NCBI GenBank assembly: GCA_007123715.1
Contig: SKKO01000128.1
Location: forward strand, 1 to 37,004
Direction: 5' to 3'
From: Balneolaceae bacterium
GTDB taxonomy: Bacteria; Bacteroidota; Rhodothermia; Balneolales; Balneolaceae
Length of the DNA stretch: 37,004 nucleotides
Shown here: in pieces, positions 2,430-15,274 of the stretch
How positions within the stretch are numbered: the stretch's first letter is position 1
How the letters are laid out: each line of letters opens with the position of its first letter
The notes under the pieces: model-generated
The model's input: only the letters and a program-made list of their open reading frames with translations
Database searches by the model: none
What the model was told of the DNA's origin: nothing
Position numbers and translations under genes: made by a program

Positions 2430-4331
2430 ATGAGCAAAATATTCTTATTTATTATGATAGCAGCAGCTTTTGATGTTGCTGCTGTCCATGCACAAAATAA
2501 GTCAACCATTGCTGATTCGCTTCAGCTGGATGATATCATGATCACCGGAACTAAAATTCCGATATCGCTGCGTGAGACGACCCGCCCGGTGGTGGTGATA
2601 AGCAGGCAGGAAATAGAACAGAGTGCTGCCCGGGATCTTGGCCAGCTATTGAACCGGCAAAGCGGGATCAGGGTCAATAATAGCCAGGGAACCCCTGGTA
2701 ATAATCAGAGTCTTTTTTTGCAGGGTGCAGGAGGTGAATATACACTTATCTTAATCGACGGAATGGCAGTGAAAGATCCGTCGGGAGTAGGAGGTTCGAT
2801 CGACTTGCGGATTATTCCGGTCGGTAATATTGAACGTATTGAGATTCTCAAAGGAAATCAGTCCTCGTTATATGGAACCGATGCTATTGCCGGGGCAATC
2901 AACATTATCACCAAAAAAGAATCGGCAAATCTGCTTCAAGCTGATGGCCGCATCTCTTATGGTGCATACAATACCTTTAATGGAACACTTGCCCTGAACG
3001 GTTCACTGAACAAAGGGGTAAGATATTATGTGAATTACAACCGAAAATCGAGCGACGGGATCAGTGCTGCTGCAGATCCGTCGGGAACCGGTTCATATGA
3101 AAATGACGGTTCTCATCTTGATTCATTTTATGGTAAAGTAACGTTTCAGCCGGCAGAGAGTTTCACTATCACTCCCTTTTTAAATATTGCTACTTTTAAC
3201 GGGGATTTTGATGCGGGTGCGTTCACAGATGCGCCGAATACTTTCTCATTGGATTTGTTGAATCCGGGAGCCCTGCTTTTGTTTGAAAGCGGAGACATCC
3301 GCTTCAGTGGAAATTACAGCTTTACGTATACGGACAGGCTATTTTCAACTCAGTTCGGTGAAAGTGAATTTGAAGGCAAATTTCATAATGCCGACGTGTT
3401 TGGCTCATACCGGCTGAATCACTATTACACGGTATTGGCCGGCTTCAATGTGCAAAACGGAAGTCTTCCTGCCACGGATTTTACAGAAGAAGTTTCTGCA
3501 TCATTTGCAAGCCCTTACGTGAATATGCTCTTGAAAAATGTAAGGGGAGTATCCATGGAGGCCGGATTCAGGCTCAATAATCACTCCGAATATGGCAGTA
3601 ATTCAACCTTTAGCCTGGCTCCTTCATATTCTATAAATGGCAGACTGAAAGTTTCTGCATCGTACAGCACCGGGTTTAAAGCACCCACACTGAATGAGTT
3701 ATTCGGCCCATTTGGAGCGAATCGGAATCTTGATCCCGAAACAAGTTCGGAAATCAGGTTTGGCGCAGAAAGTTATTTAATGAACCGGTCATTAAAATTG
3801 GAAGCCCACTATTTCAGCAGGGACATTGATAACCTGATCGTATATACGTTTGATTCCGGTTATATGAACCGCGACCGTGAAGAAACATCCGGCTTTGAAC
3901 TGGCCGGTAACTGGATAGTTTCACCTGCATTTACATTTGGCGGACACTATAACTATCTCTCCGGGGAAACCATAACACTGGACGATTCCGGAAACCGCCT
4001 TTCTGCCGATGGGCTGATCAGGAAACCGAAACATTTGGTTGGTTTATATGGATCTTACCGTTTTGGCAGCGGCCTGTTCGTGCAGTTGGATGGTGAATTC
4101 GTTGGCGAGAGAACCGATCTGTTTTTTAATCCCGCGAACAATTTTGCTGCCGAAGATGTAATTCTTGATTCCTACTTTCTGCTGAATGCGTATGCTGAAT
4201 TCTCATTTTTTGATCATAACCTTTCGCTGTTTACGAATGTCCGTAATCTGCTCAACAGTAATTTTACAGAGGTATATGGCTTCAATACAATGGGATTACA
4301 TGCAAATGCAGGAGTGCGTTTTCGTTTTTGA
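2430..4331 (+). CDS. btuB: TonB-dependent outer-membrane receptor, BtuB-like cobalamin transporter
   Basis: The 633-aa protein has a Sec signal peptide (about 1-21, ending VHA), a TonB-box-like segment DDIMITGT (34-41), a plug domain (about 45-165, with ILIDGMAVKDPSG, IERIEILKGNQSSLYG and GAINIITKK), and a long beta-barrel ending in the aromatic terminus VRFRF expected for BAM insertion. The size is normal for BtuB (about 600-650 aa). It should import cobalamin across the outer membrane with energy from TonB-ExbBD, and the upstream cobalamin riboswitch fixes the substrate far better than barrel similarity would. Its stop overlaps the ATG of the next, truncated, reading frame (TGATG), so the two were translationally coupled. 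No btuF/C/D genes follow. Confidence 0.92.
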   Translation: MSKIFLFIMIAAAFDVAAVHAQNKSTIADSLQLDDIMITGTKIPISLRETTRPVVVISRQEIEQSAARDLGQLLNRQSGIRVNNSQGTPGNNQSLFLQGAGGEYTLILIDGMAVKDPSGVGGSIDLRIIPVGNIERIEILKGNQSSLYGTDAIAGAINIITKKESANLLQADGRISYGAYNTFNGTLALNGSLNKGVRYYVNYNRKSSDGISAAADPSGTGSYENDGSHLDSFYGKVTFQPAESFTITPFLNIATFNGDFDAGAFTDAPNTFSLDLLNPGALLLFESGDIRFSGNYSFTYTDRLFSTQFGESEFEGKFHNADVFGSYRLNHYYTVLAGFNVQNGSLPATDFTEEVSASFASPYVNMLLKNVRGVSMEAGFRLNNHSEYGSNSTFSLAPSYSINGRLKVSASYSTGFKAPTLNELFGPFGANRNLDPETSSEIRFGAESYLMNRSLKLEAHYFSRDIDNLIVYTFDSGYMNRDREETSGFELAGNWIVSPAFTFGGHYNYLSGETITLDDSGNRLSADGLIRKPKHLVGLYGSYRFGSGLFVQLDGEFVGERTDLFFNPANNFAAEDVILDSYFLLNAYAEFSFFDHNLSLFTNVRNLLNSNFTEVYGFNTMGLHANAGVRFRF

Positions 4332-4432
4332 TGAAGCCTGAAAAAACAATACTGCACTGGACCGGGGGTAAAAACAGTGCTCTGGCGCTGAAGAAGTTGT
4401 TATCCCGAATTATAAAACTATCTTTTTGTTAA
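4331..4432 (+). pseudogene. Truncated N-terminus of a PP-loop ATPase (diphthine-ammonia ligase-like)
   Basis: A 33-codon frame begins at the ATG sharing a base with the btuB stop. Its first part, ILHWTGGKNSALALKK (residues 7-22), matches the N-terminal PP-loop (SGGKDS-type) of the adenine nucleotide alpha-hydrolase/Dph6-like family, whose members are normally about 220 aa. After about residue 24 the reading frame turns into unrelated sequence and stops at TAA (4430-4432). A deletion or rearrangement appears to have removed the rest. Homologues follow btuB in B12-regulated operons of Bacteroidota (recalled, not checked here). The GG(K)xS core is intact, but no functional enzyme can be made. 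Confidence 0.75.
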
Positions 4433-4488
4433 TCATTAGGGTTAAGGGGGGTATATTTTAAAAAAATTATAAAACCTTGCTATACCAT

Positions 4489-4839
4489 TTACAGTTTACA
4501 GTATATCCATTCATCCTGAATGGATAATTCAAAAGTTTTTATTCTTTTGTAAGTATCAATCAAACATTCACCTGACTCCAGATCAAATTCCCATCTGTGC
4601 CAGGGGCACCGGATCACTAATTTCTCACCGTATATATAATTTCCCGGAGAATTTGAGTTTACTGTACGGTTGATGAACCCGGAGCATATCGGAGCTCCCA
4701 TGTGCGGGCAATAATTATGGATAGCATAAAATTTACCCTCTACATTAAACAATCCGATTTCAATAGTCTTAATGGTAACTATTTTTCGTTCACCCGGATT
4801 AATGTCAGTTATCTTGGCAACGGGATAGAACGGCATCAT
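4489..4839 (-). CDS. Rieske [2Fe-2S] ferredoxin-like protein
   Basis: The 116-aa soluble protein has a Rieske cluster fold with both ligand pairs: C44-P-H46 (NYCPHMGAP) and C78-P-W-H81 (RCPWHRWEFDLESG). It has no membrane helix and no catalytic oxygenase domain, so it is the small ferredoxin type that passes single electrons, as in NirD-like or dioxygenase ferredoxins. The insert between the two ligand pairs (about 31 residues, including NSNSPGNY) is longer than in the usual short ferredoxins. It is the last gene of a three-gene operon. Its ATG overlaps the stop of the amidohydrolase by one base (TAATG), so co-translation is likely. Its redox partner is not visible in the window. Confidence 0.88.
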   Translation of the reverse strand: MMPFYPVAKITDINPGERKIVTIKTIEIGLFNVEGKFYAIHNYCPHMGAPICSGFINRTVNSNSPGNYIYGEKLVIRCPWHRWEFDLESGECLIDTYKRIKTFELSIQDEWIYCKL

Positions 4840-5891
4840 TAAAAACCATAAAGTTTAGCTGCATTTTCGTAAAAAATCTTTTCCCTTAACTTTTCAGAAA
4901 AATGTCTGAATATTTTTTCAGGGTTATCAAAATCCCAGTGCGGATAATCACTTGAAAACAGCAACATATCATCAGAGGGCATCATATCCATTAATTGATG
5001 TAAATGTTTCCGGTTTTCAGGCTCATCAAGTGGCTGGGTTGTGAGGCGAACATGTTTAGAAACAATTTCACTTGGTTTTTGCTTTACCCACGGTACTTCT
5101 CTACGCAATCCTTTCCAATTTTTATCGAGACGCCATAAAAAAGGGGGTAGCCAGCCTATGCCGCCTTCAACAAGTACGAGTTTTAAATTGGGAAATTTTT
5201 GAAAAACACCTTCACATATCATACTCACCAGATGCGTTTGCATACTTGTAGTAGCAAGTGTATGATATTCAATGTAATAGGTGGGATATCCGGCTGGTGA
5301 GGGCGGGTTTGCGATGCCGGCACCATCTGTAAAAGGATGAATGGCTACAGGAAGTTTCATTTTTTCGGCAGCTTCATAAATCGGGTAGAAGTACCGGTTA
5401 CCGTAGGGCAGGCGAGATCCGGATCCCAAACTTACCTGTACAAACTGAGGGTGATTTCCAACACGTTCAATTTCTTGTGCCGCTTTTACAGGGTCTTGAG
5501 TTGCCACAATAATGGATCCGAAATACCTATTATCAGCACTGAACCAGCGATTGATAAACCAATCGTTATATGCAGAGGATAATGCTGCGGCCCAGTCGGC
5601 ATTGGCAAGATTAGAAACTGCCAGATGGCTCGACTCTCCAATTAAAATTGCTTTTTCTATATCGTACCTATCCAATAAATCCTGAGCGGTATAAAACGGA
5701 TCCGATCCGGGTGAGGCTCCGTCCGGAGGAAATGAATCCATTTTATAAGTCCCGTCAGGATTAGGGTACCCATTATGTCCGTATAAAATATAACCCTGTT
5801 TTAAGCGGGTAAGCCAGGGCTCGGACAGATATGGCGACAATTCATCGGTACTTTTCCAGCGTACATGTACATCACAATCAATTTTTTTCAT
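4839..5891 (-). CDS. Amidohydrolase-2 family metal-dependent hydrolase or decarboxylase
   Basis: The 350-aa TIM-barrel protein belongs to the amidohydrolase-related family PF04909, which includes ACMSD and other decarboxylases as well as hydrolases. Visible metal-site elements are DCDVHV (5-10, with His9), AIHPFTDG (183-190, His185), the strand VLVEGGIGW (239-247) and FSSDYPHWD (312-320, Asp315). The second His of the classic HxH is absent, as in the DxH subgroup. The length is normal. It overlaps the upstream acetyltransferase gene by four bases (ATGA) and the downstream Rieske gene by one. The substrate cannot be read from sequence; pairing with a Rieske ferredoxin suggests metabolism of an organic or aromatic acid, but this is inference. 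Confidence 0.88.
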   Translation of the reverse strand: MKKIDCDVHVRWKSTDELSPYLSEPWLTRLKQGYILYGHNGYPNPDGTYKMDSFPPDGASPGSDPFYTAQDLLDRYDIEKAILIGESSHLAVSNLANADWAAALSSAYNDWFINRWFSADNRYFGSIIVATQDPVKAAQEIERVGNHPQFVQVSLGSGSRLPYGNRYFYPIYEAAEKMKLPVAIHPFTDGAGIANPPSPAGYPTYYIEYHTLATTSMQTHLVSMICEGVFQKFPNLKLVLVEGGIGWLPPFLWRLDKNWKGLRREVPWVKQKPSEIVSKHVRLTTQPLDEPENRKHLHQLMDMMPSDDMLLFSSDYPHWDFDNPEKIFRHFSEKLREKIFYENAAKLYGF

Positions 5892-6547
5892 TTATTTGCG
5901 GATTTTTTACCTGTTGGTTTTGCAGGAACTCCAATAGCTACCGATTGAGGGGGGATATTAGTAACAACTACGGCACCTGCTCCGATAATCGATTCTTTAC
6001 CTATAAGCACCCTGTCTTTAATAACCGTTCCGGTTCCAATGTGTACCTTATCTTCTATCACCACGTGTCCTGATATATTTGACCCGCCCGCGATGTTTAC
6101 GAAATTTCCAATTTGTGAATGATGTGCAATTGTAACTCCCGCTCCAACATAAGTATGATTGCCAATTTCCACCATGGGATCAATAATAACTCCAGGTTTT
6201 ATGACATTATTTATGCCAATTTTAGCACGTTTTGAAATGATAGATGTGTGATCAATTGCATTTATAAATTTAAAGCCAAGCTTTAGCAGTCTTTTCGAAA
6301 TGGATACCCGGGCCGTTATATTACCTACTGCAATGATTGCAAGATTCAGTCCTGATTTCTGAAGCTCTCGAATATCGAAATCATTGTGAACTACAGGTAT
6401 TCCGTTGAATGTTTGAGGAGTGCCGGAAATGTTTACATCATCAACATACGCTTTAATTTGATATGTATCAGATTGACCTAATATATCGGTAACAACCTCT
6501 GCCTGCCCCGAAGCCCCCCAAACCAATACGGGTAATGCTTTTTTCAT
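5888..6547 (-). CDS. NeuD/PglD-type sugar O- or N-acetyltransferase
   Basis: The 219-aa protein has an N-terminal nucleotide-sugar-binding PglD_N domain (VLVWGASGQAEVV, 7-19; IIAVGN, 71-76) followed by a left-handed beta-helix of hexapeptide repeats (about 103-210, IGN/VGAG/IGTG turns). His142 in TIAHHSQIGNFVNI sits where the catalytic base of NeuD/PglD lies. The C-terminal IPPQSVAIGVPAKP is typical of the family. It transfers acetyl from acetyl-CoA to a sugar or amino-sugar. It is the first gene of the operon with the amidohydrolase and Rieske protein; AAGAAGAGA directly before the ATG is a plausible ribosome-binding site. No sialic-acid or glycan genes lie nearby, so its usual partners are missing. 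Confidence 0.88.
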   Translation of the reverse strand: MKKALPVLVWGASGQAEVVTDILGQSDTYQIKAYVDDVNISGTPQTFNGIPVVHNDFDIRELQKSGLNLAIIAVGNITARVSISKRLLKLGFKFINAIDHTSIISKRAKIGINNVIKPGVIIDPMVEIGNHTYVGAGVTIAHHSQIGNFVNIAGGSNISGHVVIEDKVHIGTGTVIKDRVLIGKESIIGAGAVVVTNIPPQSVAIGVPAKPTGKKSANK

Positions 6548-6642
6548 TCTCTTCTTTTGTTTTAATCGTATAGATGGAATGGTTGTGAATTATATAAACA
6601 TCCTTATCTCAGTATCAGTATTAATTATCGTAGCAAAAACGT

Positions 6643-7320
6643 TTATATTTTAACATCAAATATGGTCCCATTTTCAATTTGAACGGTTCTGTGAGGAAAT
6701 TTTCTGATGACATCGTAATCATGAGTCACCATCAGTACAGCCATACCCCGGTTATTGATTTGTAGCAGGAGTTCCATAATTGAGGCACTTGCTTCAGGAT
6801 CAAGATTTCCGGTGGGCTCGTCAGCGAGAAGAAGGCGCGGTTCATTTGCAAGAGCCCTTGCAATTACCACACGTTGTTTCTCACCACCTGAAAGATCATC
6901 GGGCATAGAATTCCTTTTATGGCTCAATCCCACAAGGCCAAGCACTTCGAGCACACGGCTTTTAATGAATTTCTTGCCATGTCCGGTTACACGCAGTGCA
7001 AATGCCACATTATCGAAAGTACTGCGATCCGGGAGCAACTGGAAATCCTGAAAAACAACCCCGATTCTTCGTCTCAGGTAAGGTACCTGTTTCTCGGGAA
7101 GCTTGGTTACTTCGAAATCGGCTACGTAAACCAATCCCTTATCAGGTTTAACATCTCTGTATAAAAGTTTAAGGAAAGAACTTTTCCCTGCCCCTGTTCG
7201 CCCGATCAAGTAACAAAATTCTCCTGTATCAAGAAAGAAGTCAACACCATCAAGTACACGATTATTTCCGTTATAGGTAACCGATACATTGTGGAGCTGG
7301 ATAACGCCGTTTCCTGTCAT
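6643..7320 (-). CDS. ftsE: ABC-type ATPase, cell-division protein FtsE-like
   Basis: The 225-aa ABC ATPase carries Walker A GRTGAGKSS (40-48), Q-loop VFQDFQLLPD (89-98), signature LSGGEKQR (143-150), Walker B LLLADEP (163-169) and switch His200. The opening IQLHNVSVTYNGN and the phrases NRGMAVLMVTHDYDVIRKFPHRTVQIENG match FtsE, which with FtsX controls septal peptidoglycan hydrolases. No ftsX gene adjoins it, so it might instead serve another ABC exporter; FtsE remains the best match. It overlaps the preceding methyltransferase by four bases (ATGA) and ends the pdxA-methyltransferase-ftsE operon. Confidence 0.85.
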   Translation of the reverse strand: MTGNGVIQLHNVSVTYNGNNRVLDGVDFFLDTGEFCYLIGRTGAGKSSFLKLLYRDVKPDKGLVYVADFEVTKLPEKQVPYLRRRIGVVFQDFQLLPDRSTFDNVAFALRVTGHGKKFIKSRVLEVLGLVGLSHKRNSMPDDLSGGEKQRVVIARALANEPRLLLADEPTGNLDPEASASIMELLLQINNRGMAVLMVTHDYDVIRKFPHRTVQIENGTIFDVKI

Positions 7321-13636: not shown

Positions 13637-15274
13637 TTATAATCTATTACCCGTTAAAGCTGTGATTATTTGTCGGGCTTTAGGACGCGCTGACGGCGGT
13701 AAGATTCTGGCAGCATATTCTTGTAGCTTCCACAATCTTTTTTTAATCAGCCGTTTATATCGTATTGGTTGAAAGTTGTTATGAAATTCAAAAACAAGAT
13801 AAACAGCATTACTCTCACCAATATTTCTGATACCATGGGGCTCGCCTTTGAAATAAAATATCAACCCGTTCGGGCCGACTTCGCGCCCCAGTGTTTCAAC
13901 ATTCCCACTTAAAACAAGGATTGCAACATCATAATTATCAGCATGAGGTTCATAACCGCCACCCGGTTTCAGAATACTCATATGGGAGTGAAGTTTAGAA
14001 AGTTGTTCTGTTTTCCCCTGTAAAAGTCTCTTTACTGTCCATGATTGCTTGTAATTGATCTGATCTGATTCAATCTCGGTTATATGGGAAACAAGCGAGG
14101 TTTTTAAAAGTTCGCCGGTATGCCTTTGGAGATTATTTCGCCATTTAAACATTAGGTAGGTGATGTTATCCTCGGAATTATTCCGGATTGTATGGAGCTG
14201 CCCACCCGGATAATAAATGAATTCACCCCGTTGTAGCTCTTTTGATTGCTGATCATTCCCATCACCAATCAAAACCGTGGCTATGCCATCAAGCACTATT
14301 AAAATTTCTTCCTCAGCGTGCTTGTGAGGCGGGTGGGGTGTTTTACCGGGACTTAATACTGATGCATGACATGTAAGCCTATCCATTACGGGAGAATTTC
14401 CGGAATGGATACGATGCGGTTTCCAGCCTTTTTCAGGGTCGTCCGGCAGCGGTAAATCTAATTGTACAATCCAGCTTTTTATGTTACTGGATGTGGACGG
14501 TGGCTCAACAATTTCGTTTACGCCAAATTTATCAGTACCTCGAACCATAATGCATGGCGGGCGAATATCGTCCCGAAATTGGAATGGCCAGTCTAAGTTA
14601 CTGTATGATGGGGCTTTTACTGGACGATTGGGCGTGGCGTATTGTATAAGTAGTGCTTTTCTTGTACCTGTAAGATTGATGTTGTCTGTTCCATGCCATA
14701 GATTCCCGTCAAAAAATATGGCATCGCCGTCTTTCATGGAACAGGTAATTTGTGTTGACCCGGGATCGATTTCCCTGGCCCACTTCAGCACTTGTTCAGG
14801 ATTTACATTTGAACGGTCAACACCGGTTTTATGCCTCATTTCCTGGATTGAAATTCCGAATTTATGAGAGGATTTTATAACCTGAAGTGATGAGTTATAG
14901 TTTACATTCTGAAGGCCTAACCATACAGATACAGTCCGGCCAACGCCTCCCACTGTTTCCATATCTGAATGCCAGGGATGTACCTTGCCTGGTTTTCGTG
15001 TAACCAGGTTGGCTCCCCACAGCATAACATCTTCGCCCAGTATAGCTGTCACACGTTCCAAAATTGAAGGATGGGTAGCAATATCATAATAATCACGTGA
15101 ATCAGCAGCATAGCCCTTTGGCCAAACCGCAGGCCCGGAATGTGATAATATCAATGCAATTTTTGCTGCAACATCGCTTTGAAAAATCTGTACAGGACCG
15201 ATAAAACCATTGTCTTCAAATTCTTGATTCAATAGTTGAATATCTGCATCAGTAAAAGATTCCTGAAATTCCAT
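13637..15274 (-). CDS. Phytanoyl-CoA dioxygenase domain fused to two cupin domains
   Basis: The 545-aa protein has three parts. Residues about 1-225 are a PhyH-type Fe(II)/2-oxoglutarate dioxygenase with His102-x-Asp104 (HPWHSDMET), the distal His194 (GNLWHGT) and Arg205 as the likely 2-oxoglutarate anchor. Residues about 300-380 are a cupin with HPPHKHAEEE (His317, His319, Glu323) and His361. Residues about 420-500 are a second cupin with GGGYEPHADNYD (His444) and GEPHGIRN (His480). All iron ligands of the dioxygenase appear intact. Typical PhyH proteins are about 250-300 aa and lack cupins. It is a single gene, convergent with the CDP-alcohol transferase. It probably hydroxylates a small molecule; the substrate is unknown. 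Confidence 0.85.
   Translation of the reverse strand: MEFQESFTDADIQLLNQEFEDNGFIGPVQIFQSDVAAKIALILSHSGPAVWPKGYAADSRDYYDIATHPSILERVTAILGEDVMLWGANLVTRKPGKVHPWHSDMETVGGVGRTVSVWLGLQNVNYNSSLQVIKSSHKFGISIQEMRHKTGVDRSNVNPEQVLKWAREIDPGSTQITCSMKDGDAIFFDGNLWHGTDNINLTGTRKALLIQYATPNRPVKAPSYSNLDWPFQFRDDIRPPCIMVRGTDKFGVNEIVEPPSTSSNIKSWIVQLDLPLPDDPEKGWKPHRIHSGNSPVMDRLTCHASVLSPGKTPHPPHKHAEEEILIVLDGIATVLIGDGNDQQSKELQRGEFIYYPGGQLHTIRNNSEDNITYLMFKWRNNLQRHTGELLKTSLVSHITEIESDQINYKQSWTVKRLLQGKTEQLSKLHSHMSILKPGGGYEPHADNYDVAILVLSGNVETLGREVGPNGLIFYFKGEPHGIRNIGESNAVYLVFEFHNNFQPIRYKRLIKKRLWKLQEYAARILPPSARPKARQIITALTGNRL

Follow-up and report, generated by a model that had tools for sequence, protein, structure and literature searches.

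Gene organisation of the locus

The window, that is, the whole stretch of 37,004 nucleotides analysed here (contig SKKO01000128.1 of a Balneolaceae bacterium, assembly GCA_007123715.1), carries three complete open reading frames in a row on its minus strand (Table 1). They encode a NeuD-type acetyltransferase, a protein of family PF04909 (Amidohydro_2 match, 1e-41) and a small Rieske protein (PF00355, 7.5e-17). The NeuD and PF04909 genes overlap by four bases, ATGA at 5888-5891, and the stop codon of the PF04909 gene shares one base, 4839, with the start codon of the Rieske gene (TAATG). A sequence-only reading of this DNA had proposed a three-gene, translationally coupled unit, which these complete frames and overlaps bear out.

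Table 1. Features of the locus and the evidence for each
Feature	Coordinates	Strand	Length and evidence
NeuD/PglD/PerB-type hexapeptide acetyltransferase	5888..6547	-	219 aa; TIGR03570, PF17836, PF00132
PF04909 protein (ARO)	4839..5891	-	350 aa; relatives, ligands, AlphaFold2/Foldseek
Small Rieske [2Fe-2S] ferredoxin	4489..4839	-	116 aa; PF00355, motif, adjacency
Segment holding the trio	4371..6667		blastn of the G119 locus L115 against the window; GC
ATP-pyrophosphatase (diphthine-ammonia-ligase-like) remnant after BtuB	4331..4420	+	shared with G119 (L115)

None of the NCBIfam models names the PF04909 protein, and neither a Rieske-oxygenase alpha chain nor a ferredoxin reductase could be recognised among the open reading frames of the window. 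The earlier reading of the oxygenase partner as absent is nevertheless mistaken, as the PF04909 protein is itself predicted to be the oxygenase that the Rieske ferredoxin serves, as we describe below. Elsewhere in the window, a 545 aa protein (13637-15274, minus strand) has a PhyH-type oxygenase domain fused to two cupin domains.

The PF04909 protein as a predicted dinuclear oxygenase

The work of the Rittle laboratory (PMC10811679, PMC10401708), which followed that on AibH1H2 (PMC7782822), described the amidohydrolase-related dinuclear oxygenases (AROs), and O2-dependent C-H hydroxylation has been reported for SfbO and AibH1H2 (PMC10401708, PMC10811679, PMC7782822). The solved relatives of the window protein rank as 8SM7 (1e-116), SfbO (8SM6, 1e-86), then 8SM9, 8SM8 and AibH2 (1e-61), and the four solved AROs and AibH2 are 36-50% identical to it over the full length. 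Ordinary PF04909 decarboxylases, e.g. LigW, are far behind, at 1e-17 or weaker.

Regarding the metal site, the alignment predicts D7, H9, H185, E242, D315 and H318 as ligands, which means that all six ligands of AibH2 (D25, H27, H211, E265, D337, H340) are identical in the window protein; they are also invariant among 43 aligned relatives. The second-sphere D342 of AibH2, an acidic residue that distinguishes the dinuclear from the mononuclear members of the family, aligns with D320, and the counterparts of H318 and D320 were tied to the binuclear site by Hibi et al. The AlphaFold2 model (mean pLDDT 90) gave Foldseek TM values of 0.96 with 8SM7, 0.92 with AibH2 and 0.78 with PtmU3, as against 0.67-0.74 with the non-redox members. 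On these grounds the PF04909 protein is predicted to be an ARO, i.e. a two-metal, O2-using enzyme, and not an amidohydrolase. The amidohydrolase reading, and the deacylation that the sequence-only reading derived from it, are rejected on the six-ligand dinuclear site and the nearest relatives.

The closest known counterpart, the ARO of Geobacillus sp. Y412MC10 (8SM7, 'G. y4 TruffO'), is about 50% identical and of equal length, with the same ligands and the D342 equivalent, but its pocket positions 44/213 are S/L, whereas those of the window ARO are N/A. SfbO of Litorilinea aerophila, 40% identical, has a Rieske neighbour as in the window, and carries out O2-dependent C-H hydroxylation and dealkylation with Mn/Fe or Fe2 (PMC10811679). 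Nevertheless, its anion- and sulfate-binding R232 and R235 align with H210 and A213 in the window ARO, so that neither its sulfonate preference nor its substrate class carries over. The residue given as "Y280" of SfbO in the paper is D at the same index of the chain sequence, and it was left out of the comparison.

The AibH1H2-AibG-AibF system of Rhodococcus wratislaviensis (PMC7782822, PMC10401708) likewise joins a PF04909 oxygenase, 36% identical in AibH2 and with shared ligands, to a Rieske protein. However, AibH1H2 is a heterotetramer in which another subunit binds Zn, and it has a reductase of its own, whereas the operon in the window holds a single PF04909 gene, with neither an AibH1-like second subunit gene nor an AibF reductase. 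The other PF04909 matches of the genome are weaker and on other contigs. Of four such proteins, we read the locus of the strongest (contig C298) in detail as a candidate for a second subunit; this protein was rejected for its SDR and sugar permease neighbours and its lactonase-type TIM-barrel look.

In a maximum-likelihood tree the window ARO groups (100/100) with the ARO of a sister genome of the genus (G119, locus L004). The two fall outside the clade of AibH2 and the tandem actinobacterial subunits, and nearest to them are a Fictibacillus ARO (82/89, long branch) and 8SM7. Residue 213 is A or G in these two Balneolaceae AROs, as against L in most relatives.

The Rieske ferredoxin and the electron supply

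The 116 aa Rieske protein is similar to dioxygenase ferredoxins and has the cluster motif C44-P-H46 ... C78-P-W-H81, i.e. C-x-H...C-x2-H. We looked for such genes at 80 loci of ARO homologues, drawn from many phyla. A Rieske frame lies directly downstream of the ARO, on the same strand, in 62 of them, 61 of these frames with the full CxH...CxxH motif, and just one non-adjacent Rieske frame was found across the same loci; therefore, the pairing of ARO and Rieske genes is not due to chance. This agrees with Powell et al., who report 90% co-occurrence for AibH2-like proteins and a small Rieske protein encoded next to them, and with AibG/AibF as the electron chain of AibH1H2 (PMC10401708, PMC10811679, PMC7782822). 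The Rieske ferredoxin is thus the presumed electron donor to the window ARO, and the redox step that had been suspected in this unit is supported in the form of a ferredoxin with a predicted oxygenase. The statement that the genes have no matching neighbours has to be given up for the PF04909 and Rieske genes, which form a conserved and published pair, and holds for NeuD.

No Rieske gene follows directly downstream in the remaining 18 loci (L005, L010, L013-L018, L021, L022, L028, L034-L036, L050, L054, L063, L064). These are mostly from Chloroflexota, and nearly all have intact ligands, L054 excepted.

The genome itself has two PF00355 matches only, the ferredoxin of the trio and a 162 aa protein with a CTHAGC/CTCHGS-type cluster site. 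The latter is at an unrelated locus and was discarded as a partner of the ARO; a Rieske non-heme oxygenase system was discarded as well, there being no alpha subunit among the two. It is against this background that one may ask whether the PF04909 protein is a true one-metal amidohydrolase or decarboxylase after all, with the Rieske protein serving something encoded elsewhere. Its Pfam name and the presence of ACMSD and LigW in the same superfamily would fit, but the sixth ligand and D320 are in place, the nearest relatives are all AROs, the Rieske gene recurs beside them and the sole other Rieske protein found in the genome is the unrelated one just described, so that we regard this explanation as extremely improbable.

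The operon has no dedicated reductase. The best candidate that we saw is a PetH-like reductase of the FNR type, on contig C377, proposed by its NAD-binding domain and by similarity only.

The acetyltransferase is a local addition

NeuD scores 177.9 bits with TIGR03570 (NeuD/PglB/VioB), above the cut-off of 160.8, and consists of a PglD_N domain (PF17836) followed by a left-handed beta-helix (PF00132). Its best solved relative is the perosamine N-acetyltransferase PerB (3e-23), with which H142 aligns at H141, the histidine that varies between the 4EAA and 4EAB chains. It shares the domain order and the position of the catalytic histidine with PerB, PglD and NeuD, but the overall similarity is low and the gene lies outside any glycan cluster.

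Near the ARO, phmmer found a NeuD-like protein at just two of the 80 loci: L004, which belongs to the same genus, and L034, where it is 7 kb away; there was none beside AROs outside the genus. Homologues were also lacking at E<1e-30 in the 91 other genomes of the family and, under strict cut-offs, in plasmids and 394 genomes of the phylum, apart from the protein itself. The identity between L004 and the window is 70% for the ARO and 43% for the Rieske protein. The hexapeptide transferase there lies 8 bp from the Rieske gene, but it is in the opposite orientation, scores under the TIGR03570 cut-off and matches NeuD with 36% identity over 118 residues, all of them in the beta-helix. Therefore the trio is not a widespread three-gene system: when conserved neighbourhoods are compared, as had been suggested, the ARO and Rieske pair recurs across phyla and the trio does not. 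NeuD is a local addition, outside the conserved pair.

Two explanations have to be weighed here. NeuD could be a passenger that joined by chance during transfer, the functional unit being the ARO and the ferredoxin alone. The absence of NeuD near the ARO at 78 of the 80 loci, the distance at L034 and the missing homologues in the family argue for it, whereas the four-base ATGA overlap with the ARO gene and the hexapeptide transferase near the Rieske gene of L004 argue against it; we consider it a tenable reading, although not the favoured one. Alternatively, the trio could be an isolated glycan-modification cassette, in which the ARO oxidises a nucleotide-amino-sugar or a similar compound and NeuD acetylates the amine. 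Relatives such as NeuD, PerB and PglD are known to N-acetylate nucleotide-linked amino sugars, the ATGA overlap couples the two genes, a hexapeptide transferase adjoins both Balneolaceae AROs and the A or G at position 213 possibly makes the pocket roomier. Nevertheless, no glycan genes stand beside the trio in the window, the two transferases, which lie in different orientations, resemble each other in the beta-helix alone, and the characterised AROs use small molecules or terpenoids and not nucleotide sugars, for which reasons this sugar pathway seems to us rather unlikely. A functional link between NeuD and the ARO, to which their coupled translation and a neighbour at L004 that is only loosely comparable point, is plausible but weakly supported. 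It would be still more speculative, and in our opinion unlikely, that an acetylated amino compound, which might be an activated amino sugar, is the substrate or the product of the ARO; if true, this would be a new substrate class for a young oxygenase family.

Insertion between ftsE and btuB

The trio is present in one of the 28 genomes of the genus, and ARO homologues were found in two of the 92 genomes of the family, both of them of the genus. In the sister genome G119 the gap between ftsE and btuB is 293 bp long, with no trio between the two genes. The blastn homology between the window and this locus (L115) ends at 6668 and restarts at 4370, and around 2.3 kb of the window replaces 272 bp of unrelated sequence in G119. 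The GC content of the segment is 39.3%, as compared with a window mean of 43.0% (sd 1.6%), and it is below that of every sampled 2.3-kb stretch. Neither repeats flanking the trio nor the ends of insertion sequences were found around it. Beside the G119 ARO, at L004 11647-12022, there are short integrase-core-like frames (rve_3, E 0.077, below the cut-off), a weak hint of a mobile element.

The empty site of G119 and the restricted presence within the genus support the proposal that the genes were acquired as a block, and this comparison of sequences shows an insertion next to ftsE and the btuB tail, most likely by horizontal acquisition. However, the truncated B12 operon that it abuts, which had been read as a mark of this event, exists without the trio: the remnant after BtuB is also found in trio-free G119, and a long frame of the same ATP-pyrophosphatase family follows BtuB in two other genomes, G330 (L118) and G203 (L119). 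The decay thus took place before the insertion or apart from it, and the insertion as the cause of the truncation can be rejected.

Other ARO loci and the choline lead

The plasmid-borne AROs of Paracoccus, Sinorhizobium (pSymA), Pseudomonas (MPC6) and Pseudohalocynthiibacter form one clade (100/100); their loci (L131, L132, L133, L143) hold an ARO and a Rieske gene. In all four a gene annotated as a hybrid-cluster NAD(P)-dependent oxidoreductase adjoins the ARO. We scored two of these genes, and both matched the GbcB model best, at 294-296 bits, which is under its cut-off of 500. Downstream of the ARO, Sinorhizobium and Pseudohalocynthiibacter have a BetB passing NF009725, the Paracoccus locus has a short aldehyde-dehydrogenase frame downstream and a BCCT transporter, and the Pseudomonas locus has a choline-binding protein (ChoX) above the cut-off. 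This suggests that the AROs of the proteobacterial clade are candidate choline or quaternary-amine monooxygenases. Within the literature library that was searched, no paper linked AROs to choline.

AROs also stand beside BCCT transporters at haloarchaeal loci (L051, L062) and in Bacilli (L071, L073). A 2,5-dioxovalerate-type aldehyde dehydrogenase is also present at L051, L062 and L071, ETF and Fer4 subunits at L071, and a ferredoxin reductase, a second Rieske gene and an enolase-superfamily gene at L073. These neighbours, too, point to quaternary-amine oxidation, and the loci could serve betaine catabolism, e.g. of hydroxyproline betaine. Tandem ARO genes of which one copy has H at the position of D342, as expected of a mononuclear AibH1-like subunit, occur at L056, L065, L070, L079, L082 and L083; each tandem pair in Actinobacteria includes such a copy.

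Does the window ARO also oxidise a quaternary amine, such as choline, carnitine or betaine? The GbcB-like reductase, BetB, ChoX or BCCT of the proteobacterial loci and the BCCT and aldehyde dehydrogenase genes of haloarchaea and Bacilli would encourage the idea, but the window ARO lies outside the proteobacterial clade and its genome has neither a BCCT transporter nor a BADH above the cut-off. We therefore do not extend the choline idea to it and judge it very improbable.

Proposed function and significance

The explanation that we prefer, and that as a whole we consider very likely, is an acquired ARO monooxygenase fed with electrons by its Rieske ferredoxin, with the reductase encoded elsewhere and NeuD probably acetylating. 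The PF04909 protein would be an O2-activating dinuclear monooxygenase with an Fe2 or Mn/Fe centre. The co-translated ferredoxin would relay electrons to it from an NAD(P)H-dependent reductase, for which the FNR-type protein on C377 is a candidate. The ARO would act on a small and probably polar compound and hydroxylate one of its C-H bonds. This bond may lie beside a nitrogen, in which case dealkylation would follow as in SfbO. NeuD, from the same message, would probably transfer an acetyl group to an amine or hydroxyl of that compound or of its product. The cassette, most likely gained horizontally, was inserted in the interval that separates ftsE from the tail of btuB. Of this account, family, ligands, fold, the cluster motif of the ferredoxin, the recurrent pairing and the insertion are shown by the sequences, whereas the nature of the metals, the transfer of electrons, the type of reaction, the part played by NeuD and the choice of reductase are inferred.

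Thus, as far as its sequence tells, the window locus adds a further member, with its ferredoxin, to an oxygenase family that was described only recently. Proteins of the ARO type still carry an amidohydrolase annotation; if they are read as dinuclear oxygenases, the expected reaction is no longer a hydrolysis but an O2-dependent oxidation of C-H bonds, in a family with very few known native substrates. The window contributes a Balneolota branch of AROs with an unusual acetyltransferase partner, and the proteobacterial branch brings together a reductase, a ferredoxin, a betaine-aldehyde dehydrogenase and choline transport, which would make its native substrate directly testable.
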